DNA from: Algoriphagus sanaruensis
Lineage (GTDB): Bacteria; Bacteroidota; Bacteroidia; Cytophagales; Cyclobacteriaceae
Length of the DNA: 64,000 bases
Assembly: GCF_001593605.1 (NCBI RefSeq)
Contig: NZ_CP012836.1
Coordinates: 2,608,501-2,672,500, forward strand
Direction of reading: 5' to 3'
Shown piece by piece: positions 25,761 to 53,281 of this stretch (position 1 is the first letter of the stretch; the number at the start of each line of letters is the position of its first letter). A program made the translations under genes and the position numbers. The notes beneath the pieces were generated by a model that was not told where the DNA came from, did not search any database, and saw only the letters and a list, made by a program, of their open reading frames with translations.

Positions 25761-25778
25761 TTACTTTCCGATACAAAA
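25761..25778 (-). repeat. att copy 1: isolated duplicate of the mnmE 3' end (distal chromosome junction)
   Basis: ttactttccgatacaaaa is identical over all 18 bp to the last 18 bp of mnmE (53264-53281) and reads FCIGK-TAA on the minus strand. No mnmE sequence continues upstream of it: beyond these 18 bp the flanks diverge. That is the footprint of site-specific integration into the mnmE 3' end. Confidence 0.88.
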
Positions 25779-26040
25779 TCTCTCGACGCTCAAACAGTCA
25801 ATGTTTTATGGATTCCTGGCAACAAATAGGCAACATAAATTGCTCAATTAGAATCAAACAGATTAAACAATAAATTTTTTCAGAAATCTTTCTTTCAAGT
25901 AAAATTACTTCACCAATTTAAGTTTCTTCATAGTCACCAAATTGAAAAGAGGTGGTATCTCCTTATAATTGAAATGGCAACTTAATACTTGGATTAAGCT
26001 AAAAAGTAATCTCAATATCCCTCTTTTTAAAATTTCATTT
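25779..26040. other. Non-coding left end of the distal island
   Basis: AT-rich, with no gene. It holds two near-copies of ggcaaca (25818-25827 and 25829-25838) spaced 11 bp apart, close to the att core, and the leader of the 26041 gene. Confidence 0.4.
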
Positions 26041-27168
26041 ATGAACTCCCATCTTGGTCAAGTTTTAGACTGTTTTGCTCGCATGGATGTAGCAGGATTA
26101 GAGGTGCTTTTACAGGAGCCCATCTATTATGACGTTCCAAAAGAGATTTTCTTAAAGCGATTGGGGGAATTCTTTGAAAACTTTTTTGATGAAGTTGATC
26201 CAGAAAATTCACGACTTACCTATTATCCTGGGGCTTGTTGCAGTAGACAATGTGATATTTTTCCAAATAGACTTGGATTCAAATTCCATGGATACCCTGG
26301 AGATCACTTTGATCTAAGATTTGTCCTAGAAAAGGATGTTAACGGGGTTGAGTTCGTTAAAGATATCTTTCCATGCTATCATTTAGTGACTAATGAGCTG
26401 ATCGAGGACCTTGGAAGCCAGGTTTATTTTTGGGTTTATGAAGACGATAAAACAGAGGTTATAAAAGATGAAAACTATCCAATCAATTTACAGCGGGCTC
26501 TAGAAGGAGCTTTTTATTGGGAAAGCAAGAAAGAAGGGGAGATGGTAACTCTGGAAGAAATCAAAGCTTGGCGAATTAGCTATGAATCGACCTATTTGTC
26601 GATCGATAGTGATGGACCTTCAAAAACAGAATTCTGGAAATGGGATAACTTCCTTGGATTCTATAGTTACCTCGACCTTTTGGTAAGGTTTACTGAAGAT
26701 TTCAAGGTGGACCTTGCCAGGTTTATTGTGGTTGATATTTCTGAAATCAGTCATCAAGTTTTGATAAAATGGCTTTTGGAAATAGAAAACCGTATGGAGG
26801 ACCATCAGTATTGGCGGCTGCATGGTTCTACCTTTACCCGATTGGAGCAGGAAGAATACGAGGGTAAATTAAATTTTCCCTTTTCTAAAGACCTAAACTT
26901 TGAGCCTGAACTTCGGGAAACCATTGAATCATTTTTGGGATGGTTTGCGAAAGAGCGGAAAGTATGGCTAGATTATTATTTCGCATTAACCCCAACGGAA
27001 TACGATAGTTTCATCGAACAATGTAACAGTAGTTGGGAGTTATTTCAGGTAAATCACCTCTTGTCTTACCATTGGGAAGTACGCGAGAAGTTTAGGAAAC
27101 AGGGTGTATTTATCCCTTTTAACCTCAAAAAGCCTCCTTTTTCTTTCCCTTCAAACGCAAGTCATTAA
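26041..27168 (+). CDS. Hypothetical protein, 375 aa, distal island
   Basis: Not recognised. Acidic, aromatic-rich soluble protein without signal or membrane helices. The start (LGQVLDCFARMDVAGLEVLL) has the look of an NTF2/SnoaL-like helix, followed by 'YYPGACCSRQCDIFPNRLGFKFHGYP' with three nearby cysteines. ATG at 26041 (MNSHLGQ) is more plausible than 25969, which adds 24 residues of low-quality sequence. It is the first gene of the island, alone on its transcript as far as spacing shows (216 bp to the next). Confidence 0.6.
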   Translation: MNSHLGQVLDCFARMDVAGLEVLLQEPIYYDVPKEIFLKRLGEFFENFFDEVDPENSRLTYYPGACCSRQCDIFPNRLGFKFHGYPGDHFDLRFVLEKDVNGVEFVKDIFPCYHLVTNELIEDLGSQVYFWVYEDDKTEVIKDENYPINLQRALEGAFYWESKKEGEMVTLEEIKAWRISYESTYLSIDSDGPSKTEFWKWDNFLGFYSYLDLLVRFTEDFKVDLARFIVVDISEISHQVLIKWLLEIENRMEDHQYWRLHGSTFTRLEQEEYEGKLNFPFSKDLNFEPELRETIESFLGWFAKERKVWLDYYFALTPTEYDSFIEQCNSSWELFQVNHLLSYHWEVREKFRKQGVFIPFNLKKPPFSFPSNASH

Positions 27169-27384
27169 ATTTAAATTTCAAGGAGTTCTTAGACTATTGA
27201 TTTTCAATTAGTTGATTACTATTGAATGAAAGAAATCTAGCCCTGTATCATAAAATACATTGGATCTATTGGAAGGTAAATAATAGGTGACAATTCAGTT
27301 ACCTAATATTTTACTTAAAAATCAAGCAAAGGATATTTTTTTGAAAGCAATCAAATTATAGATTTAAGATATCACCAGCTAACC

Positions 27385-28191
27385 ATGAAGAATGAACTCA
27401 AGCTTCTAATCCGAAGCGTTTCCTCCTATGTGATGATTTATTCAGGAATCCTGATAGTATTCTGGTTTGTCTTTGTGATCGTTACCAGTTTGATAGGCTT
27501 GAATATCTACTCATCGGACTCCATGGATCTGATGGTTTTTGTGCTTTTTTTGGGAATATCAGTTATTGGAGTCGCAGCAGCGATCAATGTCACGCTGAGT
27601 CTTGACCTGATTGCCGAATCTAAGATCAATCAGATGAATCACCCTAATCCAAGATTAGGCAAGCGTTGGTTCGGGTGGGTTTTAGGTGGTTTTGGAATCT
27701 TCGTAGTGGTCGCTTGGATCAGTAATTACATCATTCGTACTAATCATCTCAAGGATTTTAAAGCAATCACCACAGAGGTAGTCCAGTCCCATCAGGGTAG
27801 CTTGGAAAAGATCGTTGACTACATGAAAGACAGCGCACAAATCCTAAAGACCAAGGAAGTTTTATTAGCGATCGCTAAGAGTTCAGATCAGGTGTTCCAA
27901 CCTGAACTGATTTTTACTCAGGAAGTAAATGGTAAAAAAGTATGGGTTGAGATTAACATAGGATCAGATTCAGTTGCTTTGGTTAATCTGGCTTTTGAGC
28001 AATTGGTGATCGTCCCTTTAGGTGAAGAGAAAAAGTTGATTCAAGAACTGGCATATGGCAACAAGAAAGATGCACAGGTGCTGGAACTGGAAAAGGGTGA
28101 AACCAAAGGATACTATCCCATTTCCAAAAATGGAAAAGTGATGGTGGTAAGGCTGAGTGCTAAATCAAGATTTAATGGGAATAGGGGCTAA
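27385..28191 (+). CDS. Hypothetical inner-membrane protein, 268 aa, distal island
   Basis: Three hydrophobic segments (about residues 18-40, 50-75 and 95-115) are followed by a soluble C-terminal domain of about 150 residues with beta-strand character (KVWVEINIGSDSVALVNLAFE) and a closing 'GYYPISKNGKVMVVRLSAKSR'. No enzyme motif. I do not recognise it. It lies between an unknown soluble protein and the RecQ-like helicase with gaps over 200 bp on both sides, so no operon is evident. Confidence 0.6.
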   Translation: MKNELKLLIRSVSSYVMIYSGILIVFWFVFVIVTSLIGLNIYSSDSMDLMVFVLFLGISVIGVAAAINVTLSLDLIAESKINQMNHPNPRLGKRWFGWVLGGFGIFVVVAWISNYIIRTNHLKDFKAITTEVVQSHQGSLEKIVDYMKDSAQILKTKEVLLAIAKSSDQVFQPELIFTQEVNGKKVWVEINIGSDSVALVNLAFEQLVIVPLGEEKKLIQELAYGNKKDAQVLELEKGETKGYYPISKNGKVMVVRLSAKSRFNGNRG

Positions 28192-28524
28192 GTGTTTATC
28201 ACAAAATTGATCCAATGGAACAACTGACGAAACTTAAAAGGCTAAGAATCAAGAAAGACGAGCTGCTGATCACTATTCGGGAAAAGGAGAATGTTAAAAT
28301 ACCAGAATGAAATTCATTTCAAGAATGAATTCACAAAGGAGACCATTAGAGTAGCAAGTGAACTACCAGTAATTCAAAAAAAGTACGATAGCCCATAAAT
28401 ATAGATCAATTTTCAGGAGATGATTCTTGGGAAATAGACTGGTAAAGAAGGATTTTAACTGAATCATTAAGAATTTGAAGTGAAAATTTAAACTGAATTT
28501 TAAATAACGAAAGAATTTTTCATA
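28192..28524 (+). other. Intergenic region with a possible 31-residue ORF
   Basis: A short frame at 28215-28310 reads MEQLTKLKRLRIKKDELL... and ends IPE-stop; it is lysine/arginine-rich and could be a remnant or a tiny protein. Otherwise AT-rich sequence leading to the helicase gene; no terminator seen. Confidence 0.3.
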
Positions 28525-31500
28525 ATGATTCTTCTAACAGGAGCTTACTATATTGACGAGTTTCAAGAAAAGTTTCGAACCTTGATAGGGAACGAAATTT
28601 TGGATGACTTTTATAATAAGTTTTCAAAATTCACTATCCAAAATTATCCGCCCTACATCAATCACGAAGAAGTAATTCCTCTACTTAAGGTAGCTTGGAA
28701 TATTGTCAATCGGGGGGATAGTACCAGAGCATCACTGAGATTGGGGGATTATCTTTTGAAAAGACACCTTGGTCACGAGTCTGGGTTTAATTTTTCTAAA
28801 TCCGAAATAAAAGCAACTCTAGATCTTGTTGGGGACTTTGAAAAAATTCAAGAAATATTTTTTGATTTTGGATCGATAAATGACGAAAGTGCAGTTGAAT
28901 TTGGACAATTAGCTTATTCAATTTTTAAGATTCTCCAAAAATTATTTTTATACAATCACCTCCATAAAACCATGTTACTCTGCCTTATGGCAAATCCATC
29001 TCCGACATGGTTTAAAATTCACGGTATCTCAGAAGAGGAAGAGATTCTGCTTCAGGATGATTTAAATGATCTTTTTAGAGCATTAAATCATCTTGTAACT
29101 GAGGATGAATCCAAAATCCTTCTCCTTGAAAAAGATAAATCAAGTAATCTTATCACAATATCTATTGATGGATCCAATAGAGGAATTATACTTTCTCAAT
29201 ATGAACTTGATGGGGCGCAGAATCTAAGCTTCAAAATCCTAAGTGATCGTCGGATTTTTTATAAAAAGCTGGGTGAAGTTATTATCACCGAACAGCAAAT
29301 TGAAAATGGAGAGCGGAAAGAGGTTCATACTTTTCATTATTTCAGCCATGAGCAAAAGGTAGCCTTGACCTATTTTTTAAATAACATTTTCAGAAAATCC
29401 AGATTTAGGCCAGGCCAAGAGGCAATTATAAACAGAGCCTTACTTGGAGAAGATGTGATTGGCCTATTACCAACAGGAGGAGGAAAATCGCTTACATTTC
29501 AGATCTGTGCTCTACTTCATCCTGGCGTTACCATTGTAGTAGATCCTATTAATTCACTTATGAAGGATCAATATGATAAGCTGATTGATAACGGGATTGG
29601 TAATTCCAGCTTCATTAATTCATTTAACTCCAAAGAAGAACGAGAACTTCGAATGGAAAAGCTGATGGAGGGGAGTTTTTTGATACTTTTTGTCTCTCCC
29701 GAACGTTTTCAAATGGAGAATTTCAGACAATCTCTTTCAGGGTGCAAGGATTTAGATGTTTTTTTTAGTTACGCAGTAATTGACGAGGCCCATTGCGTTT
29801 CAGAATGGGGCCATGACTTTAGACATGTTTATCTGAATTTAGCAACAAATTTGAGAAGGCATTGTGCTACAAAAAAAGGTAAATTAACTCTCTTTGGACT
29901 AACGGCAACTGCCTCATTTGATGTTTTAGCAGATGTTCAGCGAGAATTAGACTTAAAAGAAGATGCGATAGTAACACTACCGGCAGAGGCAATAGATAGG
30001 AAAGAACTAAATTTCAATATCATTCCTATTGCTGCAGATATTGAACCAAACCTTCCCTACAACAAAAGGGAGAACAAACTGGGAGCTTTCAAATACCCGA
30101 TATTAAAAAAGTTATTAAATGACCTTCCTGGAAAAATCAGTTCTTTAGAGCTGAAATATGGATATCTGAGCAGACCTAGGAATTTTTACGGGAAAGAGGA
30201 GGGGAAATACCAAAATGCAGGAGTAATATTTTGTCCTACCAAATCTAACTTACTGCCAAATGGAGTCTTACATCTTGCCTACGGTTATGAAAATAATGGA
30301 GGAGGGTTGTCAGATTTAGGTTTCCTTGAATTAAGGACATTTTTTGGTGGGGGGAGTGAAGATGTAATCAAAGATGATCGCATTGAGTCAATTGCCGATG
30401 ATTCTTATAAAAATCAAGAAGATTATATTAAAAATCGGGCAAATTTAATGATTGCCACCAAGGCGTTTGGGATGGGAATCGACAAGCCAAATATCAGATA
30501 TTCGATTCATTATTCTTTTCCAAATTCGGTTGAAAGCTTTTACCAAGAGGCTGGAAGGTCAGGAAGAGACGGCAACCCTTCGCTTTGCTCAATTCTTTAT
30601 CACCCTTTAGACATAGAAACAAACTATGATTTTTATAAAAATGCCTTCAAGGGGATTCAGCGTGAGCGCTTTATAATTGACGAATTACTCCATGAGGTAG
30701 AATATGAGGATGGTTTTTTTGTGAATATTTTAAAACAGAGAATCTGTGACAGATATCCTGAGGTATTCTCAGTAAAACTTGATAAAGAACGATATATATA
30801 CATCAATGGCCCTTGGAATAGAGATCCGGAAAAGAGAATAAAAATTGGACTTTTAGATCTACAAAGAAATTTGAGGAGCTATGACAACGCGACCCAAAAC
30901 TTTGATTTTTCAAAAGCCAATCAGATTCTCGAGTATTCTCGCCAAATCCTAAATGAATATTGTCCAGACCAAAACTATCTTCGATGGTTCAAAACAAAAT
31001 CGGCTGATGGAATAAAAACTTTAATTGAAAGTGGTACAAGTAATAGCTACACTCTCAAAATTGGATTCACTAACGGGGTAGTTTCCAAAATGAATGAAGT
31101 AATTAAAGGTTCTGGTTACGATGATTTTGACGAACGAATTATTAGAGCTGCGTATAATTTTAGTACAGATGCGGATGATTTTATTGGAAACCTTAATTAT
31201 CAATATTATAAATTTCAAAAACTGAATTCCTTTTATCAGGATAGAAGCTTTAATCCAAATCCTGAAGTTGAACAATTTCTGAAGGTTAATTATTACCGAA
31301 TTAGAAATTCTATGGACACTCAAAGGGCAATTTACCGGTTGAATATTTTAGGTGTAATTGATGATTATGTTATTGATTACGCATTGCAAATGATTGAGGT
31401 ACGATTTAAAGGAAAGACTAATTATACCTATAAAACCAATTTCAATAATTACTTAAGACGGTACCTAGGTATTGAAACCACCAAGATTTGGTTGAAAAAG

Positions 31501-32172
31501 ATAAATAAAGTTAAGGAGCCATCAATTTTAACAAAGGTACTATATGTGTTAATCGATTTCATCGAAAGTGAAATTTCAGAAAAGAGAAAACGCTCAATCG
31601 ATTACATGAAGGAACTCTGTGAGGTTCACTTAAAAGAGGGAGAACGGGAGTTTAGGGACAGAATGATTCGATATTTTACCTCTAAGTATGCAAGGCAAGA
31701 CTATTTGCCTAGAGATACAGAAAAAGGGACTAAAGAAAACTGTGAAATCGTCAGGAAATACATTGAATTTATTGATCATCCTCCGGATGGTTTAGGAGGG
31801 CAAATAGATAATGCCAAACATTTAAGGGGAGCTTGTGACAACCTTAGAATTAATATGGTGAATAATGCAAGCATAGACTTACTTACAGCTTTTAGCCTTT
31901 TTGCATTAGAACTAAAGGAAGGGGACACATTGGAATCTGCCAATGATAAACCTTTGGTGAAAAAGGCAATTGAACTTTATCGAAAAGGTTTTAAAAGGAT
32001 GGTTGTGGTAGATTCATGGGAAAATGTAAAATCTCTTTTAGAAATCTTTAATAACAAGGTTCTAGATTTTAATTCTGAAATAAGAAAACTGATGGATGAG
32101 CTCTATTCCGAACTATTAGTTCAAAGAACCAACTATCGACTAAAGCAATTTCTCGATAAAATATCCACCTAA
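28525..32172 (+). CDS. RecQ-like DEAH-box helicase, 1215 aa, with unrecognised N- and C-terminal regions
   Basis: Superfamily 2 helicase. Motif I LPTGGGKSLTFQ (about residues 313-325), motif II DEAHCVSEWGHDFRH (420-434), motif III LFGLTATAS, motif V ATKAFGMGIDKP and motif VI QEAGRSGRDG (about 674-683) match the RecQ family. It lacks the usual RQC/HRDC layout: about 290 residues precede the helicase core and over 500 follow it, none recognised. RecQ proper is about 600-730 aa. Its stop overlaps the start of the next gene (TAATG), so the two are translationally coupled. Location in an integrative island suggests a phage-defence or element-maintenance role; that is inference. Confidence 0.85.
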   Translation: MILLTGAYYIDEFQEKFRTLIGNEILDDFYNKFSKFTIQNYPPYINHEEVIPLLKVAWNIVNRGDSTRASLRLGDYLLKRHLGHESGFNFSKSEIKATLDLVGDFEKIQEIFFDFGSINDESAVEFGQLAYSIFKILQKLFLYNHLHKTMLLCLMANPSPTWFKIHGISEEEEILLQDDLNDLFRALNHLVTEDESKILLLEKDKSSNLITISIDGSNRGIILSQYELDGAQNLSFKILSDRRIFYKKLGEVIITEQQIENGERKEVHTFHYFSHEQKVALTYFLNNIFRKSRFRPGQEAIINRALLGEDVIGLLPTGGGKSLTFQICALLHPGVTIVVDPINSLMKDQYDKLIDNGIGNSSFINSFNSKEERELRMEKLMEGSFLILFVSPERFQMENFRQSLSGCKDLDVFFSYAVIDEAHCVSEWGHDFRHVYLNLATNLRRHCATKKGKLTLFGLTATASFDVLADVQRELDLKEDAIVTLPAEAIDRKELNFNIIPIAADIEPNLPYNKRENKLGAFKYPILKKLLNDLPGKISSLELKYGYLSRPRNFYGKEEGKYQNAGVIFCPTKSNLLPNGVLHLAYGYENNGGGLSDLGFLELRTFFGGGSEDVIKDDRIESIADDSYKNQEDYIKNRANLMIATKAFGMGIDKPNIRYSIHYSFPNSVESFYQEAGRSGRDGNPSLCSILYHPLDIETNYDFYKNAFKGIQRERFIIDELLHEVEYEDGFFVNILKQRICDRYPEVFSVKLDKERYIYINGPWNRDPEKRIKIGLLDLQRNLRSYDNATQNFDFSKANQILEYSRQILNEYCPDQNYLRWFKTKSADGIKTLIESGTSNSYTLKIGFTNGVVSKMNEVIKGSGYDDFDERIIRAAYNFSTDADDFIGNLNYQYYKFQKLNSFYQDRSFNPNPEVEQFLKVNYYRIRNSMDTQRAIYRLNILGVIDDYVIDYALQMIEVRFKGKTNYTYKTNFNNYLRRYLGIETTKIWLKKINKVKEPSILTKVLYVLIDFIESEISEKRKRSIDYMKELCEVHLKEGEREFRDRMIRYFTSKYARQDYLPRDTEKGTKENCEIVRKYIEFIDHPPDGLGGQIDNAKHLRGACDNLRINMVNNASIDLLTAFSLFALELKEGDTLESANDKPLVKKAIELYRKGFKRMVVVDSWENVKSLLEIFNNKVLDFNSEIRKLMDELYSELLVQRTNYRLKQFLDKIST

Positions 32173-32897
32173 TGTCTAAGATAACCGATTTACAAGAAGA
32201 GTTTGAAGTACTCATTAAAGAACTTGAGCGCTTAAAATCCATCAATGAAATTACGTCAATCAATAGTTTAAATGCAGAAATGACTATTGATGAGCTTAAA
32301 AAATTTATCGATGTAACCGAAAAATTTATTTCAGCTATAAAGTCTGATTATAATGAAAAGATGAAATCCTTTTCTGAAAGAGAAAAAGCTCTAAATGATG
32401 CAATAATAAAATTACATCAGGGAATTGAAGATCAATCTAAAAAATTTGAATTAATAACAAGTATTAATTCAAAATCATGGTCGAATGACCTTGATCTGTT
32501 AAAGAAAGATTGGAATTCTCGGATAGAGAATTATATGCATCAAATTAAGGATGTTAGAAAAAAAATTGAAACTGAAGTTTTGGAATACTCAAGGAACACT
32601 GCTGGAACATTAAGAACCCAAAATTCCATGGTTGTAGAACAAATAGAAAATGAATCCAAAACTAAAACCAGAGAGCTAAACCTTTTACGACTTAAACAAG
32701 AGGAGTCAGTTGATTTAATAAAGGCTGAATACTTACGTGGAATTAAAGAATTGAAATCAGAATTTATAACTAAAAACGATCAATTGAAGATTGAAATCTC
32801 TAATAACGCAGATAAGATTGAAACTGTAATGTATTTGGTTATTGGATTTGGTTCGATTATAAGTATTGGCCTTCTAGCTTTGATTATTAGTAACTAA
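32172..32897 (+). CDS. Coiled-coil protein with C-terminal membrane anchor, partner of the RecQ-like helicase
   Basis: 241 aa. Almost entirely heptad-patterned, charged helix (residues about 1-210, for example KSINEITSINSLNAEMTIDE), then one hydrophobic segment (METVMYLVIGFGSIISIGLLALIISN region, about 215-240) that ends the protein, i.e. a tail anchor. No enzymatic motif. The start codon overlaps the helicase stop, so the pair probably acts together, perhaps tethering or sensing at the membrane. Not recognised as a named family. Confidence 0.7.
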   Translation: MSKITDLQEEFEVLIKELERLKSINEITSINSLNAEMTIDELKKFIDVTEKFISAIKSDYNEKMKSFSEREKALNDAIIKLHQGIEDQSKKFELITSINSKSWSNDLDLLKKDWNSRIENYMHQIKDVRKKIETEVLEYSRNTAGTLRTQNSMVVEQIENESKTKTRELNLLRLKQEESVDLIKAEYLRGIKELKSEFITKNDQLKIEISNNADKIETVMYLVIGFGSIISIGLLALIISN

Positions 32898-33091
32898 AAA
32901 ATCTTTAATTATCATTATAAAACCTTGTCCAATTGACTCCGAAAAATACTTATTAGATAATTAAATGTATTTTTAAAAAGCTTTTGATCAGAATGGATAA
33001 ATTAGAAAGATGTAAAGAAGATGTTTATTGATTTAATTAAATTACATTATAAAAATTTATAGATAATTTATTAATATTTAAAATTCAAAAA

Positions 33092-33757
33092 ATGAGTAAA
33101 TTTAAATTTTCAAACAGCAGACAAGATAGAGAAAAATTTAATGATTTAATGATTTACTCTAATAAAGACACTAAATCAGATAGTTTTTTACATAGGTTTT
33201 TCTGGGAAAAAATAAAGTATACTTTTATATCTGACGAATCGACTGTAAAATATACTGATAATGAAGATAATATACTTATTTTTGAAGATGAACTTGGTTT
33301 GATAATTATTGGATTTCTAGGAATTGATCGCAAATTTGATCGAACAAATATAGATATTTCAAATTCTATTATTACAAGTTTGTTGGAATTTGACAAAGAT
33401 ATTAGAAAACTAGCAATTGATAAAGGCATAGATAACTATAGGTTAATATATTTTACAACCTATAAATTAAGTGATTTTAAATCTAATATTTTTTCCAAAC
33501 TACCTATCGATGTGTCATATTTCTATTTAGCCAATTTTAATGAGAATAAAGAATTGATTCTTGCGTTTGAAAATGATCTCGAATTAATCGATATTATAAA
33601 CTATGAGCTTGAAGCAAACCAATTTTTAGAATATGCAATTAAAAGAAATAGGAACATTAATCAGAAAGAGGAATGGTATTGTGAGTTATGTGGCGGTAAT
33701 AATTTCTCTGGTTGTCAATACTTTGATCCTACCGAATGTCCCAATTCACAAACCTGA
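33092..33757 (+). CDS. Hypothetical protein with C-terminal cysteine cluster, 221 aa, distal island
   Basis: Very AT-rich gene. The body is alpha/beta without a recognised motif; the last 25 residues have WYCELCGGNNFSGCQYFDP-x-EC, four cysteines that could bind zinc. Start ATG at 33092 follows a 194-bp AT-rich gap after the coiled-coil gene, so it could belong to the same functional module but is not tightly linked. Function unknown. Confidence 0.55.
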   Translation: MSKFKFSNSRQDREKFNDLMIYSNKDTKSDSFLHRFFWEKIKYTFISDESTVKYTDNEDNILIFEDELGLIIIGFLGIDRKFDRTNIDISNSIITSLLEFDKDIRKLAIDKGIDNYRLIYFTTYKLSDFKSNIFSKLPIDVSYFYLANFNENKELILAFENDLELIDIINYELEANQFLEYAIKRNRNINQKEEWYCELCGGNNFSGCQYFDPTECPNSQT

Positions 33758-37844: not shown

Positions 37845-37867
37845 ATTTAAAAAATTTGTTTACCCAA

Positions 37868-39124: not shown

Positions 39125-39128
39125 AGGT

Positions 39129-44810: not shown

Positions 44811-47018
44811 TTAATTCTCTGTGATGTTTAAAATCACCCCATCTTGAACAATAATTTTTGATCCTGGATTTAAAACTATAGGTAAAGGTAAGTTGATAGC
44901 ACTTTGATTAATATAGTCCGTTAAATTTCGAGTTGAACCTGGACCAAGATTACAACATTGGCCATTAGTCCAATATTCATTTAAAGTTTTTTTAAGGGAA
45001 ATCCCATTCATAAAGTCAATTATTACCCACGTCCCATACCCGGTCCAAACAACGCCACTGGACTCAAAACGCTTAAAACTACCAACCCATTTTATTTGGG
45101 GTGGTGAATCTGTCTTAGTAAAAACATTGTTAATGGACCAAGACTTACCTTGAGGCACTTCATATTCTCCTGATGTATCAATTGAGAAAACCCTGGTTGT
45201 TTGAACCACAGGATTACAAATAAATTCCGACTGATTTACTTCTTCTGAATCAAGAGTTCCATTGTTATTGGAATCCAATCCAACCTCAATTTTGAACCCT
45301 CCATTTGCACAATTGTCACCACTGGCCTCATTGATAATATTAATCCTAGAGTTCAACCCATTAATACCTGGAGCTCCGTCATTTCCATTTGGACCTATTA
45401 ATGACTCAAGAAATTCTCCCTCAGTACCTATATTTCCAATGGAAACCCATATTTCATATGCGCTTTTTCCGGGATTCCCATCCAATCCTTGATCACCTTT
45501 CGGACCTTGTAATCCTTGTAGGCCGATTTCACCTTGATCTCCCTTAGGACCTGCTGGTCCTTGAATGCCTCGCTCACCTTGTAGACCAATCGGACCTTGT
45601 GGTCCTGGTTCTCCTTGAACTCCCTGATCGCCTTTTGGACCCGGGGGGCCAGTCTCACCTTGATCACCTTTCGGACCTGCTAGTCCTTGCACCCCTTGTT
45701 CACCCTGTGGGCCAATAGGACCCTCGGGTCCCGGATCACCCTTATCTCCCTTAGGACCTTGTATGTTACCAGCACTTGCCCAGTTGGATTGAACTGGATT
45801 CCATACATACAAAATCCCTTCAATTAAATAGGAATCCCCAGGACTTCCTGATTCAGGCAGATCATTCGCTGAATTCAAACTACCTAGAATGGCAACGCCA
45901 GTACCATCGTTTCCTTTTGGACCTTGGGGTCCTTCAGGACCCGGATCACCTTTATCTCCTTTTGGACCTACTGGTCCTTGAATGCCACGCTCACCTTGTA
46001 GACCAATCGGACCTTGTGGTCCTGGTACTCCTTGAACTCCCTGATCGCCTTTTGGACCCTGTGGTCCCATCTCACCTTGATCACCTTTCGGACCTGCTAG
46101 TCCTTGCACCCCTTGTTCACCCTGTGGGCCAATAGGACCCTCGGGTCCCGGATCACCCTTATCTCCCTTAGGACCTTGTATGTTACCAGCACTTGCCCAG
46201 TTGGATTGAACTGGATTCCATACATACAAAATCCCTTCAATTAAATAGGAATCCCCAGGACTTCCTGATTCAGGCAGATCATTCGCTGAATTCAAACTAC
46301 CTAGAATGGCAACGCCAGTACCATCGTTTCCTTTTGGACCTTGGGGTCCTTCAGGACCCGGATCACCTTTATCTCCTTTTGGACCTACTGGTCCTTGTTG
46401 CCCCGCAATTCCTGGTTCTCCTTGATCACCTTTTAACCCTTGAGGACCAGGATTTCCCTGGTCACCCTTTGGACCGGATGGTCCGACTAAGGATTTGATA
46501 AAGTCTTGTTCTGAGCCAGTATTACCAAGTTCTAACCAAACCTCGTACGCACTTTTTCCAACCGAACCACTAGATTCGGATGAGCCTGAATTTAAGGCAA
46601 ACATTGCAAATGGAACTGCTGTGAATTGTTGAATACTAATAGATTTAAAGTCTGCACATAGTCCTCCTTTGTCCAGTGAAACTTCTAGATTTTTTGCCTG
46701 GCTATTCCAGCTGATCTTTTGAAATGAATCAACGACTCCTCCAATTCGCTCACCAGTTCCAATTATGACATTCACCAATCCATAAGCATCCGTTTGGGTT
46801 TGAATGACTTCCTCATATTCAGCCACTCCCAGGTCATTTAGGAATGAAAATTTCAAACAGATTTCCTGATCAGCCAAAGGAGTTGCTGGATTATTGACGC
46901 CTGGCAGTGGCTTCCCTTCAGGATTCATTATAACCGCTTGATAGGTAATGCCAGGAACCTGCGCGTTAGCTAGCTTTATGGAAATAAAGCATAGAGCTAG
47001 AATGCTTAAATATTTCAT
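44811..47018 (-). CDS. Exported collagen-like protein with Gly-X-Y repeats
   Basis: 735 aa. Signal peptide [19 protein letters not shown], then an N-terminal globular domain (about 25-150), a long collagen-like region from about residue 185 to 545 made of GPKGDQG-, GPQGPIG- and GEQGVQG-type triplets, interrupted by '[20 protein letters not shown]'-like linkers, and a C-terminal beta-rich domain. Such proteins form triple-helical stalks, as in bacterial and phage fibres. Last gene of a three-gene operon. It contains a 417-bp in-frame tandem duplication, so array length can vary by recombination. Confidence 0.85.
45545..46397 (-). repeat. Two tandem near-identical copies of a 417-bp unit within the collagen-like gene
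   Basis: Period 417 bp (139 codons): for example the segment starting at 45664 recurs at 46081. The copies are nearly identical with a few substitutions, such as gtggtcccat versus ggggggccag at the boundary. Each unit holds several Gly-X-Y blocks and one copy of the '[20 protein letters not shown]' linker. Confidence 0.85.
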
Positions 47019-47019
47019 G

Positions 47020-47634
47020 TTAGTCCAATTGAAAATGGATACCAAATAGAATTCGATTGTTGAGGTAGGAGAGGGTTTCTTCAGTTTTTCGACCTAGCCG
47101 AAAAGCAAGTGAATAATCATATTGTAGACTTATGTACCCCTGATTGAAAATGTTGTATAAAACAGAAACACCTAATCCAGGCTGTACCAAAAGCCCACTG
47201 AATTCAGGGTTTTTCCTAAGTTCATATCTGGAGTTATTAATAACTTGGGTGCCGTTAATCATACCCATTGCACTTGCTGTTGCTAAAATCCCCACACTCA
47301 ATTCCCCAGAAGTTGGATAGAAGGCCACCGTATTTGTAAGTCCTCCATAGGTGGTATTCCAACTGTAATTATTGTTTACATCACCTCCAGTAGCATCGAA
47401 AGAATTTACTGTTAATCCAAACTCATATTTAAGCCACTCTTGGGCAAATGGAACGCCTATACCTAACCCATATGAAGATCCGACTCCAGGCAGAAGACCA
47501 GTTATTTTTAAGCCATATTGATCTTTAAAATTGTAACTAGTATGATTCAATCCAGTCCGGAAGAATATTTCCTGGGAATAAGATTTTATGGTTAGTCCCA
47601 GAATGAAAATGAATAGAGGAAGGGATCGTTTCAT
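47020..47634 (-). CDS. Putative outer-membrane beta-barrel protein, 204 aa
   Basis: Signal peptide MKRSLPLFIFILGLTIKSYSQ, then alternating amphipathic strands rich in aromatic and glycine residues (FFRTGLNHTSYNF, YGLGIGVPFAQEW, YISLQYDYSLAFR) and a C-terminal strand ending in ...ILFGIHFQLD. It could be a PorP/OmpA-like barrel that anchors or exports the collagen-like product. ATG overlaps the stop of the upstream gene; the collagen-like gene starts 1 bp after its stop. Family not certain. Confidence 0.65.
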   Translation of the reverse strand: MKRSLPLFIFILGLTIKSYSQEIFFRTGLNHTSYNFKDQYGLKITGLLPGVGSSYGLGIGVPFAQEWLKYEFGLTVNSFDATGGDVNNNYSWNTTYGGLTNTVAFYPTSGELSVGILATASAMGMINGTQVINNSRYELRKNPEFSGLLVQPGLGVSVLYNIFNQGYISLQYDYSLAFRLGRKTEETLSYLNNRILFGIHFQLD

Positions 47635-48113
47635 GATTTTTTGATGATTCTAGTATGGGTTATCCTGCTACCAGCTTTGATGAAAACGAGGTAAACCGAG
47701 TTTGATAAAAACTCAAGGTTTAAATGAACCTCATTATTAATTGGATTCTGAATGTCATGAAATACTCGTTTCCCATACAAATCGTATATGGTAATTTCTG
47801 ATGCTCCAAAAGATTCTGGATAAAACCGAAGGGTGACTCTTTCTGAAAAAGAATTTGGGTAAGGTAACACAGAAAAAGACTCTATTTTTTGAAAAGATCT
47901 GGCTGGAAGAAACCCTTTCAAAAATCCTTGACTTGCAGTTGAAAAAGACCCATTTACACTTAGTTGACCTGCGGAATGATGAAGTAATAGTGAGCTTCGA
48001 TCTGAACGAATAAATCCAAGGGAACTGAATGTTTGCCTCTGAACAGTTTGCCCCTTGGTTATTAGTGAATGACTAAAAAGAGCCAAAAGAAGAAGAAATG
48101 AAATTTTTGCCAT
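47631..48113 (-). CDS. Secreted protein with T9SS-like C-terminal sorting domain, 160 aa
   Basis: Signal peptide MAKISFLLLLALFSHSLITKGQ. The last 80 residues (from about FSVLPYPNSFSERVTLRF; IYDLYGKRVF; NSVYLVFIKAGSRITHTRIIKK) follow the type A C-terminal sorting domain pattern of the type IX secretion system, with the P-N-P-like start and the V-F-I-K ending. It precedes the barrel and collagen-like genes, so the trio may form a cell-surface fibre system. The T9SS reading is from motif only. Confidence 0.65.
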   Translation of the reverse strand: MAKISFLLLLALFSHSLITKGQTVQRQTFSSLGFIRSDRSSLLLHHSAGQLSVNGSFSTASQGFLKGFLPARSFQKIESFSVLPYPNSFSERVTLRFYPESFGASEITIYDLYGKRVFHDIQNPINNEVHLNLEFLSNSVYLVFIKAGSRITHTRIIKKS

Positions 48114-48422
48114 TCAATAAATTTAAAGTCTTGAACCACTAACGAGCCGATCGTGGATTGATAGAGCTCGATTAAAAGTATGGTCAAGCTTAATTTTGGC
48201 AAAGGAGTATTTCGTAAATTAATTGGTAACAAGTTTGTCACCTAATTTTAATTTTGATTATATTTATTATATATTTGAATATCAATACCTTATACATTGA
48301 TACTATCATTGATGTCATATTCAAATTATTTTCACGTTTTTACGTTGTTTCAAATTATTTAAACTTTAGTTTTATTTATCTAAGTGAATCCAGTCGCGAT
48401 TTTCTAGAAAAAGTTCAAAATT
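48114..48422. other. AT-rich intergenic region
   Basis: 309 bp, with no gene and no clear hairpin. It lies upstream of the T9SS-like operon, which it should therefore contain a promoter for, but no TANNTTTG match was seen. The short plus-strand frame at 48254 is not credible. Confidence 0.35.
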
Positions 48423-48749
48423 TCATTTCCCAGATTTGATAAATCGAATCAATCTTACTTTGAAGTTCAAACCTTTATCAGTGAAGGTTATAAAAGACCT
48501 AGAGTAGTATTGATTGGATCGGTTGGACCTGATATAACCTTTGTTTTCAAGAGATTTTAAAAATCCATAGGTAGTAGCCGGCTTTGCTTGATTTACTTCG
48601 CAAATCTCTTGTTTTGATATCACCTGATGTTCATCAAGCAACCTTGCAGTAAGTATCAATACGAACTTTTCTCCTGGTGATAATTCCTCATTACCTTCAG
48701 TTAAAAAATATCTGATACCAGCTTCAATATGTAGGAGGCTAACGCTCAT
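48423..48749 (-). CDS. Winged-helix (MarR-like) regulator, 108 aa, element-encoded
   Basis: 'LSPGEKFVLILTARLLDEHQVISKQEICEVNQAKPATTYGFLKSLENKGYI' reads as a helix-turn-helix with a following wing (RSNQYYSRSFITFTDKG), the MarR/Rrf2-like arrangement. No ligand domain. ATG at 48749. It lies upstream of the surface operon on the same strand and might control it. Assignment is by pattern. Confidence 0.55.
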   Translation of the reverse strand: MSVSLLHIEAGIRYFLTEGNEELSPGEKFVLILTARLLDEHQVISKQEICEVNQAKPATTYGFLKSLENKGYIRSNRSNQYYSRSFITFTDKGLNFKVRLIRFIKSGK

Positions 48750-48896
48750 ATTCTATATAATAAATACTTAGTAGAGATATTGAGGGGTTACCACATCTTC
48801 AAATAGAAGATAAAATAATTTAAATCGGACAATCAACTTTTCGACTACATTCTCCTTAAAGCTTGATCTTCAATTTACCACTTATTCTATAATTAA

Positions 48897-49190
48897 TCAA
48901 TACCTTATATTTCTAACTCTATACAAAGAATTTTCAATTTCAGACTCTTTGAATAATACTCGACCCCCAATAACATACGATGGGATTAGCCCACTTTTCG
49001 TCCAGCTGTGAAGTGTGACAAGTGATATTTTAAGTTTATCCGCCGTTTCTTTTCTTGTGAGAAATCTCTCTGGTGCAGGTAAAGTAGAGGGAAGGACATT
49101 AGATTTGATTGCATCTAGAACTGCTTTACGGATAATTCCTTCTAGTTCCTCCGGTGTAAGACTGATCAACATGATTTCTTTCATAAACAT
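48897..49190 (-). CDS. Excisionase-like helix-turn-helix protein, 97 aa
   Basis: The C-terminal 50 residues are an HTH_17/MerR-type DNA-binding segment (FLTRKETADKLKISLVTLHSWTKSGLIPSYVIGGRVLFKESEIEN), common in Xis and plasmid regulators. Two ATG starts (49190, 49184) are close together; the extra N-terminal part of the long frame reaches into the next gene and is not used. It follows the Rep-like gene. Confidence 0.72.
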   Translation of the reverse strand: MFMKEIMLISLTPEELEGIIRKAVLDAIKSNVLPSTLPAPERFLTRKETADKLKISLVTLHSWTKSGLIPSYVIGGRVLFKESEIENSLYRVRNIRY

Positions 49191-49327
49191 TTCTCTTTTG
49201 TTTTGAGTAAAAGACCCTTGTTCAAGAAAGGTTTGATGAGAATTTTTTTCAACCTTAGAGCAATGGTAAATCTGGCTTTCAGAATTGAATTTTGACCTAT
49301 TTACACCTAGTATGTATTGTAACTTAG

Positions 49328-50182
49328 TCAAATAGACCAAAGCTTCTTCATCATAGCTTCAAAGATGGCTTGTTTGACATTAAAGCCAGCTTCATTGATA
49401 AATCGATCATATACTCTTTTATGGTAACTACGAACTTGCTTGGAAGCATTGATCCAAAAATTCGGGTTTGACCATCGAGAGATTCTTATAATTTCATCTT
49501 GATTGGACGGATTGTATCCAATTAATCCCGGATCAATCAAAAGAGTATTGGCCCAACCGCCATAGAGCAATGCATTCTGAAGTTTCAACCTGGCCTCCGG
49601 CCTCTTTAGATCACCTATCTTATAAACTCCTAACTTGTTGATGAACTTCGACCTATTTGCCGAAATTTCAATTCTCAAAAGATTCTTGGCAAGGCAGTTT
49701 TGTACTCCTTTGTCATACGCTTTCACACGGAACTGTGAATGAGAACAGACGTAATGTGTACCAGGATTAACATACATTTTGTCAAACCGACATCCATGGT
49801 GCATTACTAGTCCAGAAAGAATCTGCTTCGGAGGGATTTTGGTTTCAACATTGATTCCCCATTCCAAATTAATCAGTGGCAAATCTCGAATCTTGATTCC
49901 AAAGGTGTCTGAGAGCTCATCTACAACTAGAAAGACTTCATCCCACGTGAAATCATCATAGTTGTGTTTTCCCTCGTTCTTGAACTTATGAAGACTTCCT
50001 TTTAGGTATCCAAACCCAGAGCTCTTAATATGGATGGTCATTCCATTGTAGTTACAAATGCTTGATTGTCCAATCTCTCCGGTTTGGCGGCTGAATTCTG
50101 ACTTAAATTCAAGATTAGGGTTACTCAATAGCTTGCCTATCTCTAGATAGTCAAGCCTAAACTTGACACCACAAAGCATCAT
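49328..50182 (-). CDS. Possible rolling-circle replication initiator (Rep/phage gpII-like)
   Basis: 284 aa. 'LPLINLEWGINVETKIPP', the 'KAYDKG' segment and 'LLRIEISANRSKFINKLGVYKIGDL' are reminiscent of the N-terminal region of CRI/gpII-type replication proteins. The Tyr-based active site (about 'VRSYHKRVYDRFI' near the C-terminus) cannot be confirmed. Its start overlaps the stop of the upstream HTH gene (ATGA). If right, the excised element could replicate; this is a weak call. Confidence 0.42.
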   Translation of the reverse strand: MMLCGVKFRLDYLEIGKLLSNPNLEFKSEFSRQTGEIGQSSICNYNGMTIHIKSSGFGYLKGSLHKFKNEGKHNYDDFTWDEVFLVVDELSDTFGIKIRDLPLINLEWGINVETKIPPKQILSGLVMHHGCRFDKMYVNPGTHYVCSHSQFRVKAYDKGVQNCLAKNLLRIEISANRSKFINKLGVYKIGDLKRPEARLKLQNALLYGGWANTLLIDPGLIGYNPSNQDEIIRISRWSNPNFWINASKQVRSYHKRVYDRFINEAGFNVKQAIFEAMMKKLWSI

Positions 50183-50529
50183 TTCTGGTGCTTGGATTTT
50201 ATATATGAATCGGCCTCAGATTCAATTTCTTGAATAGACTTTCTTTTATTCTTAATTAGATAATCCCTTAAATCCGATTTTGAGAAGTATAAATTCTTGG
50301 CCGGCTTCATGTATGGAATCCTTCCATGATGAACTAGACTGTAAATTGTTGAAGGCTCAAGCGTCAAAAATTTTGCTGCCTCCTTTACGGTTAGAAGATC
50401 TTTGTCATCCGTTGGAGCTACGGATGTTTTTTGGTCACAGAGTACACTTAGAATATTTTCTGTAACGCGTTCTGAAATTTTTTTGATCAAAATCTCAGGA
50501 TCAATAGGACTAAATACGACTTTGTGCAT
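50179..50529 (-). CDS. Excisionase-like HTH_17 protein, 116 aa
   Basis: A central helix-turn-helix DNA-binding segment (LLTVKEAAKFLTLEPSTIYSLVHHGRIPYMKPAKNLYFSKSDL) belongs to the Xis/HTH_17 family. Overlaps the next gene by ATGA, so it is coupled to the Rep-like protein. It lies upstream-adjacent (in the transcript) to the iteron cluster at 50593-50625. Confidence 0.75.
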   Translation of the reverse strand: MHKVVFSPIDPEILIKKISERVTENILSVLCDQKTSVAPTDDKDLLTVKEAAKFLTLEPSTIYSLVHHGRIPYMKPAKNLYFSKSDLRDYLIKNKRKSIQEIESEADSYIKSKHQK

Positions 50530-50592
50530 AGTTTTCTTTTGTTTTTATGCATCAAAAATGAAAAGTCGTTTTACTCGTCACTTATTAAATTT

Positions 50593-50625
50593 GCCCAAGT
50601 TTCGCCCAAGTTTCGCCCAAATTAA
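50593..50625. repeat. Three direct 11-bp iterons
   Basis: gcccaagtttc starts at 50593 and recurs at 50604; a truncated third copy gcccaaatta starts at 50615. Period 11 bp, about one helical turn. They lie between the 50529 start and the 50622 stop of the neighbouring gene, a position suited to an operator or to a Rep or Xis binding site. Confidence 0.6.
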
Positions 50626-51407
50626 AAACCTTTGATTTCCAGGTATTTTTTAACTTCCTCTTGATGATGAGAAAGCTCAATTACGATATCCTTCCAATAA
50701 TCTCCACCAATCATGTTCAAATATGTTTTTGAATTTAGGCTATCAATTAAAATTTCACCGAACACTTTATAAAATCTGTTTCCCTTACGATCACCTAACC
50801 GAGCATTTCCAATATATTCTAATCTCGTTCTTTCATTTGAACTTGGAAAAGATTCATCTGTCGCAAGGCAATCAAAAATATAGGATAAAACATGGTGTTT
50901 GGTCGAAATCCTATATCCCTTATAATGACTCAATAGTCTTTTTACAGGTTCATCATTCGAGGGAGCATTATCACTACCTTTTATAGAACTTTTTTCAATT
51001 TTTGGTCCATGCTCAATTGAAATATCAGGCTGGGGGATAGATACCTTTGGACTTGGAAGCGGGTAAAAATTTTCGGTTTTCTCATGATAAAGCTCTGAAA
51101 TATGAGCATGGGCCCTATTTAAGTTTAAAATAATCCGCTCCCAATATGTACCTGAAGGGTCCACTTGAAAATTTTCTTTAGTTATATAGATAAAAGCATT
51201 TGATAGGGAGTCGTAAATTTTCCTGTATTTACCTTTCTTATTTTCATCGTCAGATAAATAAAGCTCCCTAAGAGCATTTATAAACTTCTGTGTATTATCA
51301 TAAACCATATAAATATCATCCTCTTGTGGAAGATGATTATTTAAAAAAGCATTCAAAATATTCTCAAATGCTTCCAAATATTCTGATAAGACTTGTTCTC
51401 TTTTCAT
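50622..51407 (-). CDS. Hypothetical protein of integrative elements, 261 aa
   Basis: Not recognised. Acidic N-terminal half ('YLEAFENILNAFLNNHLPQEDDIYMVYDNTQ'), a proline-rich middle (PLPSPKVSIPQPDISIEHG), and a C-terminal half with KGYRISTKHHVLSYIFDCLATD. Its placement directly downstream of the integrase (4-bp gap to 51412) implies an element function. ATG at 51407. Confidence 0.55.
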   Translation of the reverse strand: MKREQVLSEYLEAFENILNAFLNNHLPQEDDIYMVYDNTQKFINALRELYLSDDENKKGKYRKIYDSLSNAFIYITKENFQVDPSGTYWERIILNLNRAHAHISELYHEKTENFYPLPSPKVSIPQPDISIEHGPKIEKSSIKGSDNAPSNDEPVKRLLSHYKGYRISTKHHVLSYIFDCLATDESFPSSNERTRLEYIGNARLGDRKGNRFYKVFGEILIDSLNSKTYLNMIGGDYWKDIVIELSHHQEEVKKYLEIKGF

Positions 51408-51411
51408 CGAC

Positions 51412-52623
51412 CTAAAGATCTAATTTGATTTTATCAGCAGCATCTCGCTTCGTTTGATCTATTATTTTAGCATAAATCTGAGTGGTTTTAAGCTCACGGT
51501 GTCCCAATAGTTTAGAAACGGTGTAAATATCAGTGCCATAAGTTAGTTGCAAAGTAGCGTAACTGTGCCTGAAGCAGTGAAAGGTAATGTTCTTGGATAT
51601 GCCAGCTGATTCAATCCACTTTTTGAGTAACCTGTTCTTATAGTCTGAGTACTTCAATCCATGAAATACCTTTTTTGTAAGATCGCCTCTTTCACCTAGT
51701 AAAAGGAATGCTTGCTCTGAAATAGGGTGATATTCAACTCCACTAGTTTTCTCTTGTTGAAACTTCAAGAAATAGCCCTTACCTGTAATGAATTCAACCT
51801 CAGCCCAAGTTAATTTCTCGATATCGGAAAACCGTAAGCCAGTAAGCGCCGAGAAAATTGCAGCTCGCTTTAGTATTTCATCTTTACAAGGTTTTTTTAC
51901 AAGATCGTTGAGCTCTTGTTCTGTTAAGAATTCTCTTCTGGTTTCCACTTCCTTTATGGACGACACCTTAGCGTTTAGGTCTTGTTGAAGTATTCCGTCT
52001 TTGTAGGCCTGCTTAAGTGCCGCCTTAATTTTATTGAAGTAGGAGACGGCTGAATTTTGAGAAAGAGTCGCCTCATTTGATTTTGTACTTTTAGTGGTCA
52101 ATAGATAATGTTTGAACTCTTCAAGAAACTTCTCGTTCAAATCAGAAAAATGTAAGATTCCACCTGTAAATCTCTCGAGGTATTTTATAGCTGAGTTCCA
52201 ATTATCATAGTTAGAAGACTTCCGTTTCTTAGAAAGCTTTCTGAAATAATCCACGAAGTCTTGTCTACCCGCTGCCTGAAGCTTTAGCCTTTCTTTTTCA
52301 AACTCTGAATAAATTTCAGGTTTGTTCAAGTCATTCTCTCGCTTCAATCGTATTTTTTCGGCAATGGAAAGGGCATTATTATTTTCTTGCTCTATCGCTT
52401 GGTTAACTATAGGGTTTTCCGAATAGATTGGCACCTGTTTTATAGACCCATTTCCTAGCTTTTTGCTTTTGAATTTTATCGGGTCCTTTACATACATTTT
52501 CAGGAATTCTCGCCTAGTGTTCTCACCAGTTTTGGGATTGGTTATTCCAGGATAAAAATCAAGATACAGGCTTGATCTCCCTTTAGAAATCGATTTTTGT
52601 CTTAAGGTTACTTTGATTGCCAT
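51412..52623 (-). CDS. Tyrosine site-specific recombinase (integrase) of the mnmE element
   Basis: 403 aa. C-terminal catalytic domain with Arg in SALTGLRFSDIEKL (about residue 263), HxxR in FHCFRHSYATLQL (about 348-351) and the nucleophile Tyr in TQIYAKIID (about 383). N-terminal Arm/SAM-like domain ('KRKSSNYDNWNSAIKYLERF' and flanks) as in Bacteroidetes conjugative-transposon integrases. Preceded by a zinc-finger/HTH gene (7-bp gap). It presumably acts on the 18-bp att core at the mnmE 3' end. Confidence 0.9.
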   Translation of the reverse strand: MAIKVTLRQKSISKGRSSLYLDFYPGITNPKTGENTRREFLKMYVKDPIKFKSKKLGNGSIKQVPIYSENPIVNQAIEQENNNALSIAEKIRLKRENDLNKPEIYSEFEKERLKLQAAGRQDFVDYFRKLSKKRKSSNYDNWNSAIKYLERFTGGILHFSDLNEKFLEEFKHYLLTTKSTKSNEATLSQNSAVSYFNKIKAALKQAYKDGILQQDLNAKVSSIKEVETRREFLTEQELNDLVKKPCKDEILKRAAIFSALTGLRFSDIEKLTWAEVEFITGKGYFLKFQQEKTSGVEYHPISEQAFLLLGERGDLTKKVFHGLKYSDYKNRLLKKWIESAGISKNITFHCFRHSYATLQLTYGTDIYTVSKLLGHRELKTTQIYAKIIDQTKRDAADKIKLDL

Positions 52624-52630
52624 GACTTCT

Positions 52631-53023
52631 TTAGTCTTCAGGTGTCGGGGTATAATTAATGCCCTGAGTTCGGTTCATTATAAAATCAAGTTCAGATCGG
52701 TGGATTCTGGTAAGCCTTTCAGAAAGGTTTATAGCACGAATTTGGCCATTATTGATCAATCTATACGCCGTCCGGGTTGAGCATCCTAGCAATTGAGCCA
52801 GTTCTTTAACAGTTAGAATTTCCTTTGCTTGAAGTTCAGCAATTGGCTTGATCTTCAATTGCAAGGTTTCAGAATTTGATCGATCCACTTTTTCAACCCT
52901 TTTTCTTGCCTTATACGCACGCCCAGCACAGGGAAGAGAACAGAACTTCGTTACTGTTGTTCGCGCTGTAAACTCTTTACCACAATATTGACAGATTCTC
53001 TGGATAGAAATATTTGAGCTCAT
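52631..53023 (-). CDS. Zinc-finger/HTH DNA-binding protein, excisionase-like, 130 aa
   Basis: N-terminal [22 protein letters not shown] is a treble-clef-like zinc cluster; the C-terminal part [45 protein letters not shown] is an HTH_17 excisionase fold. First gene of the element after mnmE and co-transcribed with the integrase. Likely regulates integration or excision. Confidence 0.75.
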
Positions 53024-53124
53024 TTCATGAAACAGATTTACTTAAGATTTCATAAGACGTATTAAGATTAATTAAGCGCCATAATTTATCCTCTGGTGGA
53101 AGAATTTTCATGAATTTGGACCCG

Positions 53125-53153
53125 AGGTACAATAAAGGTACAAAAAGGTACAA
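53125..53153. repeat. Three direct aggtacaa repeats near the integrase-side att
   Basis: aggtacaa at 53125-53132, 53136-53143 and 53146-53153, spaced 10-11 bp apart. They lie upstream of the 53023 start and about 110 bp from the att core. Could be integrase arm-type or Xis sites, or operator copies. Confidence 0.6.
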
Positions 53154-53194
53154 AAAAGACCTGAAAAAGTCGTATCAAATCAAAAATCTATAAA

Positions 53195-53220
53195 ACAAAA
53201 AAAGCCTCAATATGAGGCCT
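53195..53220 (-). terminator. Terminator of mnmE carried by the integrated element
   Basis: GCCTCA (53204-53209) pairs with TGAGGC (53213-53218), and the minus strand then runs through a T-run. It lies 46 bp inside the element from the att core. The native mnmE terminator would be the one at 25714-25740. Confidence 0.75.
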
Positions 53221-53263
53221 TAATGGGGTTTTTGAAGATTTATTAAAGTTTGTTTTCAATATG

Positions 53264-53281
53264 TTACTTTCCGATACAAAA
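53264..53281 (-). repeat. att copy 3: last 18 bp of mnmE (integration target)
   Basis: ttactttccgatacaaaa, encoding FCIGK-TAA. The 18-bp size and coding content correspond to the site used by SGI1-type islands at the 3' end of trmE/mnmE in other bacteria (established knowledge). Here the flanks on the other two copies show it is duplicated by integration. Confidence 0.88.

Follow-up and report, generated by a model that had tools for sequence, protein, structure and literature searches.

Very probable tandem arrangement of an integrase-bearing and a CIME-like element at the 3′ end of mnmE in Algoriphagus sanaruensis

The 3′ end of mnmE in Algoriphagus sanaruensis very probably carries two integrative elements in tandem, an integrase-bearing element (A, 18.9 kb) and an element without integrase (B, 8.6 kb) that resembles a cis-mobilizable element (CIME). 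They lie in a 64,000-nt stretch of NZ_CP012836.1 (positions 2,608,501–2,672,500), hereafter the window, and all coordinates given below are window positions. Such a stack, with members of about 8.6 and 19 kb, had been proposed in a first-pass annotation of this DNA, and it is now backed by an empty site in the congener G004, by ends specific to each element, by an integrase family sited at mnmE and by circular forms of relatives. The searches called family, order and genus searches covered 255, 390 and 72 genomes, respectively, and G- and L-numbers denote the genomes and loci of relatives. The main features of the locus are as follows.

53264..54646, minus strand: mnmE, intact target gene, 460 aa (open reading frame, ORF)
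53264..53281, minus strand: core copy 3, joint between the mnmE 3′ end and element A, 0 mismatches
34350..53263: element A, 18.9 kb, with integrase, lying between copies 2 and 3, ends common to relatives
34332..34349, minus strand: core copy 2, A/B junction, TGA stop instead of TAA, 1 mismatch
25779..34331: element B, 8.6 kb, without integrase, G+C 33.4%, lying between copies 1 and 2, ends matching the element of G344
25761..25778, minus strand: core copy 1, outer end of B beside the chromosomal flank, 0 mismatches
24848..25456, minus strand: chromosomal oxidoreductase gene, the next gene after mnmE in the empty site of G004 (ORF and comparison with G004)

The 18-bp 3′ end of mnmE was found three times on one strand of the window when up to two mismatches were allowed, while none was expected from 100 shuffles. 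The number and common orientation of the copies were thus as annotated, but copy 2, previously placed at 34333–34350, actually lies at 34332–34349. In the 3.88-Mb contig the core with Y at the stop codon gave five matches at ≤2 mismatches, namely the three known copies, which are exact for this pattern, and two with 2 mismatches elsewhere, and the backwards control of the pattern gave none. Only the copy at 53264 runs on into mnmE, as had been noted, and the mnmE side of copies 1 and 2 has no resemblance to this gene. The TGA stop of copy 2 is also the stop codon of mnmE in G344. The terminators announced near each copy were recovered as terminator-like hairpins about 20, 33 and 42 bp from copies 1, 2 and 3. 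Orthologues of mnmE were found in 38 of 38 relatives searched, some of the matches being fragmented or merely to paralogous GTPases.

The empty site predicted for relatives was found in the congener G004, where the oxidoreductase gene starts at a distance of approximately 225 bp from mnmE and the ROK, zwf, pgl and AMP-ligase genes come after it, as they do in the window. Only 1.7 kb separates mnmE from the oxidoreductase gene in G010. The outer flank of an 8.5-kb core-bounded insert in G321 matches G239, where just a 76-bp repeat stands, and the outer flank of the 13.6 kb lying between two cores in G016 corresponds to the sequence directly behind mnmE in G023. The 27.5 kb between copies 1 and 3 are thus inserted DNA and not old synteny; conserved synteny of the entire stretch, the observation that could have contradicted insertion, was replaced in G004 by the empty site. 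The flank beside copy 1 resembles the flank of mnmE or of its remnant in G413, G338 and G414.

Smaller traces were also seen at this site. Two mnmE-end cores lie 76 bp apart beside mnmE in G239 and G413 (L152 and L158); between them, ahead of the second core, is a short piece of duplicated mnmE sequence, an arrangement that resembles the footprint of a micro-CIME. An extra mnmE 3′ fragment lies about 830 bp past the far core in G414 (L157; about 60 codons) and in G338 (L138); these fragments look like the remnant of an older event. In several congeners (L148–L150, G366, G017) the oxidoreductase gene is a long way from mnmE or on a different stretch, a sign of additional inserts or of rearrangement.

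Next to copy 3, element A encodes an excisionase-like protein and an integrase:

52631..53023, minus strand: excisionase-like protein with Cys-rich N-terminus and HTH_17 (family matches)
51412..52623, minus strand: tyrosine integrase, 403 aa, with Arm-DNA-bind_5, Phage_int_SAM_5 and Phage_integrase (Pfam)

The R, K, H, R, H and Y positions of the integrase, which we take to be the catalytic residues, are conserved, and a sequence-based structure search returned solely XerA/XerD/IntI-like and phage integrases. Its relatives were detected in 59 of the 390 genomes of the order (E ≤1e-40). Among the best 30 loci, the own one included, 27 combined the mnmE end, the core, an excisionase-like gene and the integrase; L063, L070 and L082 had no mnmE within the 1.5-kb flank, the piece of L063 being incomplete and the mnmE end being present in L258, a contig of equal length. 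Relatives were encoded on 502 stretches of the GTDB r220 contigs, and mnmE lay upstream in 75 of the best 80, mostly within 1 kb of the integrase (within 3 kb in L197 and L266). These 80 come from Cyclobacterium, Flavobacterium, Chryseobacterium, Pedobacter, Chitinophaga, Saprospiraceae, Bacteroidales and Rikenellaceae, among others. The remaining five comprise four with the core and no mnmE (L233, L234, L251 and L272, of which L234 and L272 are at a contig end) and L227, which has neither. Integrase relatives were also present in 18 plasmid records (E ≤1e-30), with identities below 60%.

In IMG/VR, 13 relatives were found, five with the core and no mnmE, one with both (L288) and seven with no core in the available stretch. 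L285, L287 and L289 (6.2–7.8 kb) have identical terminal repeats of 127, 114 and 127 bp and are therefore circular, and in them the core joins the far end (ACT) to the integrase-side end. They are the excised form of relatives with the core rejoined. These three circles, listed as viral, encode the integrase, an AAA_25 ATPase and HTH_17 and DUF6371 proteins; their scanned proteins included none of capsid type. A small terminase was considered for the circles and dismissed, as the single match was weak and fell in the viral contig L283. Comparison of four intergeneric genome pairs gave 96.6–97.4% identity over the first 1.7 kb of the element and 62–67% over the 3′ parts of mnmE, which shows that relatives have been transferred between genera.

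The ends of A and B differ in their short repeats:

53201..53221, minus strand: terminator-like hairpin placed behind mnmE by A (hairpin search)
53126..53152, minus strand: three TGTACC repeats, mnmE-side end of A (repeat search)
34399..34404, minus strand: TGTACC repeat, far end of A (repeat search)
34284..34298, minus strand: terminator-like hairpin, copy-2 end of B (hairpin search)
34238..34244, minus strand: TGTTGCC repeat, copy-2 end of B (repeat search)
25818..25835, minus strand: two TGTTGCC repeats, copy-1 end of B (repeat search)

The far core is immediately preceded by TTACT in 12 elements (A and those of G072, G197, G370, G376, G397, G163, G369, G400, G258, G027 and G002). TGTACC repeats, often 11 bp apart, were searched for over 220 and 160 bp at the two ends (rate in the window, 0.17 per kb and strand); 11 of these 12 elements had at least two in the mnmE-side end, and 11 had one or more in the far end. 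Four elements (B, G344, G015 and G338) have TGTTGCY in place of TGTACC, located at −57 in the far end and also at −46 in three of the four, and G009 has neither motif. In a tree of 69 integrases made by a quick method the repeat class follows the clades: at least two TGTACC repeats occurred in all 24 core-bearing rows of the 30-row set with A, while the 13-row clade with G344 had TGTTGCY in 12 rows and TGTACC in none. By this assignment the ends of B belong to a different integrase clade from those of A, and both repeat types are presumably arm-type integrase sites. A terminator-like hairpin was located ≤110 bp from the core in 13 of 17 elements, compared with 11 of 170 mononucleotide-shuffled ends.

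No integrase was detected in B by tblastn with 18 family integrases (E ≤1), and its five larger ORFs matched no Pfam family of recombination genes. Both of its ends (121 and 114 bp, core included) match, with 88% identity, both ends of the G344 element, a 33-kb element located at the mnmE of a congener, which carries an integrase and an excisionase-like gene. No further DNA is shared, the sole extra match being that of the two ends against each other. Judged by these ends, B would derive from, or share its ends with, a G344-type element. The own genome contains no close copy of the G344-type integrase, the best match (43%) being the integrase of A. Besides the own genome, only short or weak matches to the B ends were found in the family genomes (five genomes for one end, three for the other), a sample that evidently excluded G344. 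The mnmE-side end used as a query against the genus genomes detected G344 and two short matches, and no second integrase-less element with such ends.

Stacks were also surveyed at 31 other integrase-bearing mnmE loci, read for about 19 kb or more; four additional loci (G291, G206, G271 and G014) were read for just 5–7 kb. In G285 and G193 another integrase lies beyond an inner copy of the core, and in G205 the second integrase is shortened. G376 has the mnmE-side end once more after its far core, with no second integrase in the 60 kb read. Core-bounded inserts without a full family integrase occur in G002 (with a 47-residue trace), G016 and G321.

From these data, each element would have entered through tyrosine recombination, with an 18-bp core of its attP and the final 18 bp of mnmE as the partners, an event that would leave mnmE with another stop codon and, in most cases, another terminator. 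A has cores at both ends, one of them joined to mnmE, its own integrase beside the core and an empty site in a relative; this integrase belongs to the family found at mnmE across Bacteroidota. A is probably still able to excise. B lacks an integrase of its own and encodes no recognised recombinase; it retains the core, arm-like repeats and terminator of the G344-type clade. Having kept its att sites and lost recombination genes, which are two marks of a CIME, it is best read as a decayed, CIME-like element that presumably lost its integrase through decay and would exit only together with A or with the aid of a compatible integrase. Insertion of B followed by A and of A followed by B yield the same product, which therefore does not reveal the order.

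Several observations weigh against this two-element interpretation. The roles of TTACT and of the arm-like repeats are read from conservation only, and integrases that lack a core within 2.2 kb are dispersed over the tree (10 changes compared with 12.2 in shuffles). At 10 of the 31 surveyed loci (G347, G114, G087, G387, G270, G390, G127, G232, G391 and G165) the stretch read showed no far core. In a fifth pair, G338/G015, the element is 75.3% and mnmE 77.7% identical, so there is no excess similarity, and the circles seen are those of relatives. A further point concerns B itself: without the core its ends are 83.5 and 81.2% identical to those of the G344 element, about the divergence of the two mnmE genes (81.3%), so a shared old insertion is possible. 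B would then be a resident fossil inherited in common with G344, with the interior swapped in one or both lineages, and not a separate acquisition. The mnmE tree fits this in placing the window and G344 in one five-species group with G004, G008 and G002 (support 93/93). However, G004 of the same group has an empty site, the tree gives the group no firm inner order and the interiors of B and the G344 element have no DNA in common; we regard common inheritance as a real, though clearly the less probable, alternative. It is rather unlikely that B is a passenger that never owned an integrase and was moved in trans by arm-matched integrases, similarly to a miniature inverted-repeat transposable element (MITE) or a satellite. 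Its ends keep the core, arm-like repeats and terminator with no trace of an integrase or excisionase-like gene, and the inserts of G002, G016 and G321 could be of the same kind, but the genus search gave no second element of this type, the own genome has no G344-type helper integrase, and the integrase trace in G002 speaks for decay.

Two other explanations were rejected. Arrival of the whole 27.5 kb as a single element, the middle core being a chance or internal repeat, is very unlikely, because A and B each own a pair of ends that recur elsewhere as the ends of single elements. The two might nevertheless travel jointly once stacked, as composite excision is reported for streptococcal stacks (PMC7563491). 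Copies 1 and 2 as remnants of a duplicated mnmE have a negligible probability: homology stops after the 18 bp, the adjoining bases are element ends, and nothing in the window favours duplication, although longer mnmE 3′ fragments occur in G338 and G414. The first-pass annotation had named mnmE homology beyond the 18 bp as a finding that could overturn insertion.

The rest of A, whose G+C content is 39.6% (about 40% in the flanks), comprises the following genes:

50622..51407, minus strand: 261-aa protein, no family matched (profile scans)
50179..50529, minus strand: HTH_17 protein (Pfam)
49328..50182, minus strand: 284-aa protein, predicted RepD-type rolling-circle initiator fold, without Pfam family (model and Foldseek)
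48897..49340, minus strand: HTH_17 protein (Pfam)
48423..48749, minus strand: small MarR-like protein (match below the Pfam cut-off)
44811..47045, minus strand: collagen-like Gly-X-Y repeat protein (read off the translation)
34623..44652, minus strand: hsdM (43069–44652), hsdS (41891–43072), mcrB-like gene (39129–41894), mcrC (37868–39124) and hsdR (34623–37844) (family matches)

From mnmE inward the order is thus excisionase-like gene, integrase, 261-aa, HTH_17, 284-aa and HTH_17 protein genes, then cargo. The model of the 284-aa protein (mean predicted local distance difference test score, pLDDT, 90) had its best Foldseek matches with 4cwe, 4cij and 4cwc (E 3e-6, probability 1.00, template modelling (TM) score about 0.5, root mean square deviation about 7 Å), which are rolling-circle initiators of Staphylococcus and Geobacillus; the protein is therefore predicted to have a RepD-like initiator fold. 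No tra, mps or sga genes and no canonical relaxase were recognised among the scanned ORFs of A (44811–47045 and 47631–48113 lay outside the scan), and nine proteins of A and B scanned with PHROGs gave no match to helper-phage packaging or hijack functions. The mcrB-like gene and mcrC sit inside the type I operon, with hsdS on one side and hsdR on the other. The collagen-like protein contains two near-identical repeat modules and is adjoined by small secreted-looking proteins.

Element B encodes the following proteins:

25969..28191, plus strand: two proteins, 399 and 268 aa, no family above the cut-off (Pfam scan)
28525..32172, plus strand: RecQ/DpdF-like helicase, 1215 aa (family matches)
32172..33757, plus strand: two proteins, 241 and 221 aa, no family above the cut-off (Pfam scan; the 221-aa protein has two relatives)

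Relatives of the helicase were found in 14 of 291 genomes at E ≤1e-60, the own genome included. It was discarded as a marker of B-type elements, as the 14 other loci with 1.5-kb flanks were without core (the sole core-like match, in L099, had 4 mismatches). G043 (L087) encodes a helicase 47–49% identical to that of B, and after it comes a partial relative of the gene that adjoins the helicase gene in B (window 28525–32897); helicase and neighbour may therefore form one system.

Defence-type genes occur among the cargo of A and of other elements at mnmE. Type I systems are present in A and, by clustering with its genes, whole or in part in G370, G366, G015 and G163, and G193 has McrBC and type I genes. 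Further examples are a type IIG enzyme (G016), a Drt2-like reverse transcriptase (G366), a GajB-like helicase (G376), BrxC with PglX (G344) and a PtuA-like protein (G015). PADLOC gave no match for 6 of 10 proteins at E ≤1e-5 and for 5 of 8 at E ≤1e-15, and no rate of defence cargo can be derived because the proteins were chosen by size and not randomly.

Phage satellites of the P4 or phage-inducible chromosomal island (PICI) kind are small and combine integrase and primase/helicase genes with defence cargo, and NBU1, an integrative and mobilizable element (IME) of Bacteroidetes, has a tRNA gene as its target. The elements described here are like the satellites in their small size, integrase and defence cargo, and proteins of relatives include D5_N/DUF5906, but no packaging or hijack gene was shown, apart from the one weak small-terminase match in L283. 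NBU1, NBU2 and Tn4555 share with A a Bacteroidota-type tyrosine integrase and HTH_17 excisionase-like proteins (PMC5704250), but their canonical relaxase was not recognised in the scanned ORFs of A. The 10K genomic island of Riemerella anatipestifer is likewise a small Bacteroidota integrase island, for which circle excision was shown, but its 53-bp repeat lies at a tRNA-Arg gene and not at mnmE (PMC6764341). CIMEs and accretion were described in streptococci (PMC5704250, PMC7563491), where the most decayed elements sit farthest from the target gene (PMC7563491), and B, read as decayed with att ends kept, similarly lies behind an intact element and farthest from mnmE. The partners in streptococcal stacks are IMEs and integrative and conjugative elements (ICEs) with relaxases, unlike A with no relaxase recognised and a predicted rolling-circle initiator fold.

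That Salmonella genomic island 1 (SGI1)-type islands use an 18-bp site at the trmE/mnmE 3′ end, as stated in the first-pass annotation, is published. SGI1-related elements share this 18-bp core, have attP endings of two types (GGGAAGTAA and GGGAAGTGA) and form tandem arrays (PMC9035990). SGI1, PGI1, PGI2 and AGI1 of Gammaproteobacteria thus resemble our elements in the gene end and the core, in a tyrosine integrase with an excisionase by the core, in tandem arrays, in restriction cargo in some, and in the last 9 bp being supplied by the element and ending in TAA or TGA (PMC9035990). They differ in that our elements have a Bacteroidota host, no tra, mps or sga among the A genes tested and other replication families. 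Independence from the SGI1 lineage seems likely, judged by host range and backbone content.

Accretion, CIMEs and mnmE as the site of SGI1 are already known, and the principle is ordinary. No published account of a Bacteroidota mnmE integrase family was found in the full-text literature searched, mostly without subscription papers, nor any map of the mnmE site in this phylum. What appears to be new is the Bacteroidota-wide mnmE integrase family, the agreement of arm-repeat classes with its tree and an element without integrase but with a nameable parent type. The docking site of SGI1-type islands in Gammaproteobacteria is used in Bacteroidota by elements with other backbones, suggesting a general role as landing site for the conserved last codons of mnmE (FCIGK). 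The arm-repeat classes tracking the integrase tree provide a testable rule for which elements stack and which integrase moves which passenger, and as several mnmE elements carry restriction, bacteriophage exclusion (BREX)-like, Septu-like or defence-associated reverse transcriptase (DRT)-like genes, the mnmE site is a place to seek defence systems. Tentatively, and with rather less than even confidence, mnmE may be a main dock for Bacteroidota-wide small integrative replicons that carry anti-phage defences and no conjugation or capsid genes and move from genus to genus as circles, possibly inside helper-phage particles. Their integrase clades would share the core and differ in the arm repeats, hence stacking and B-like passengers moved by arm-matched integrases.

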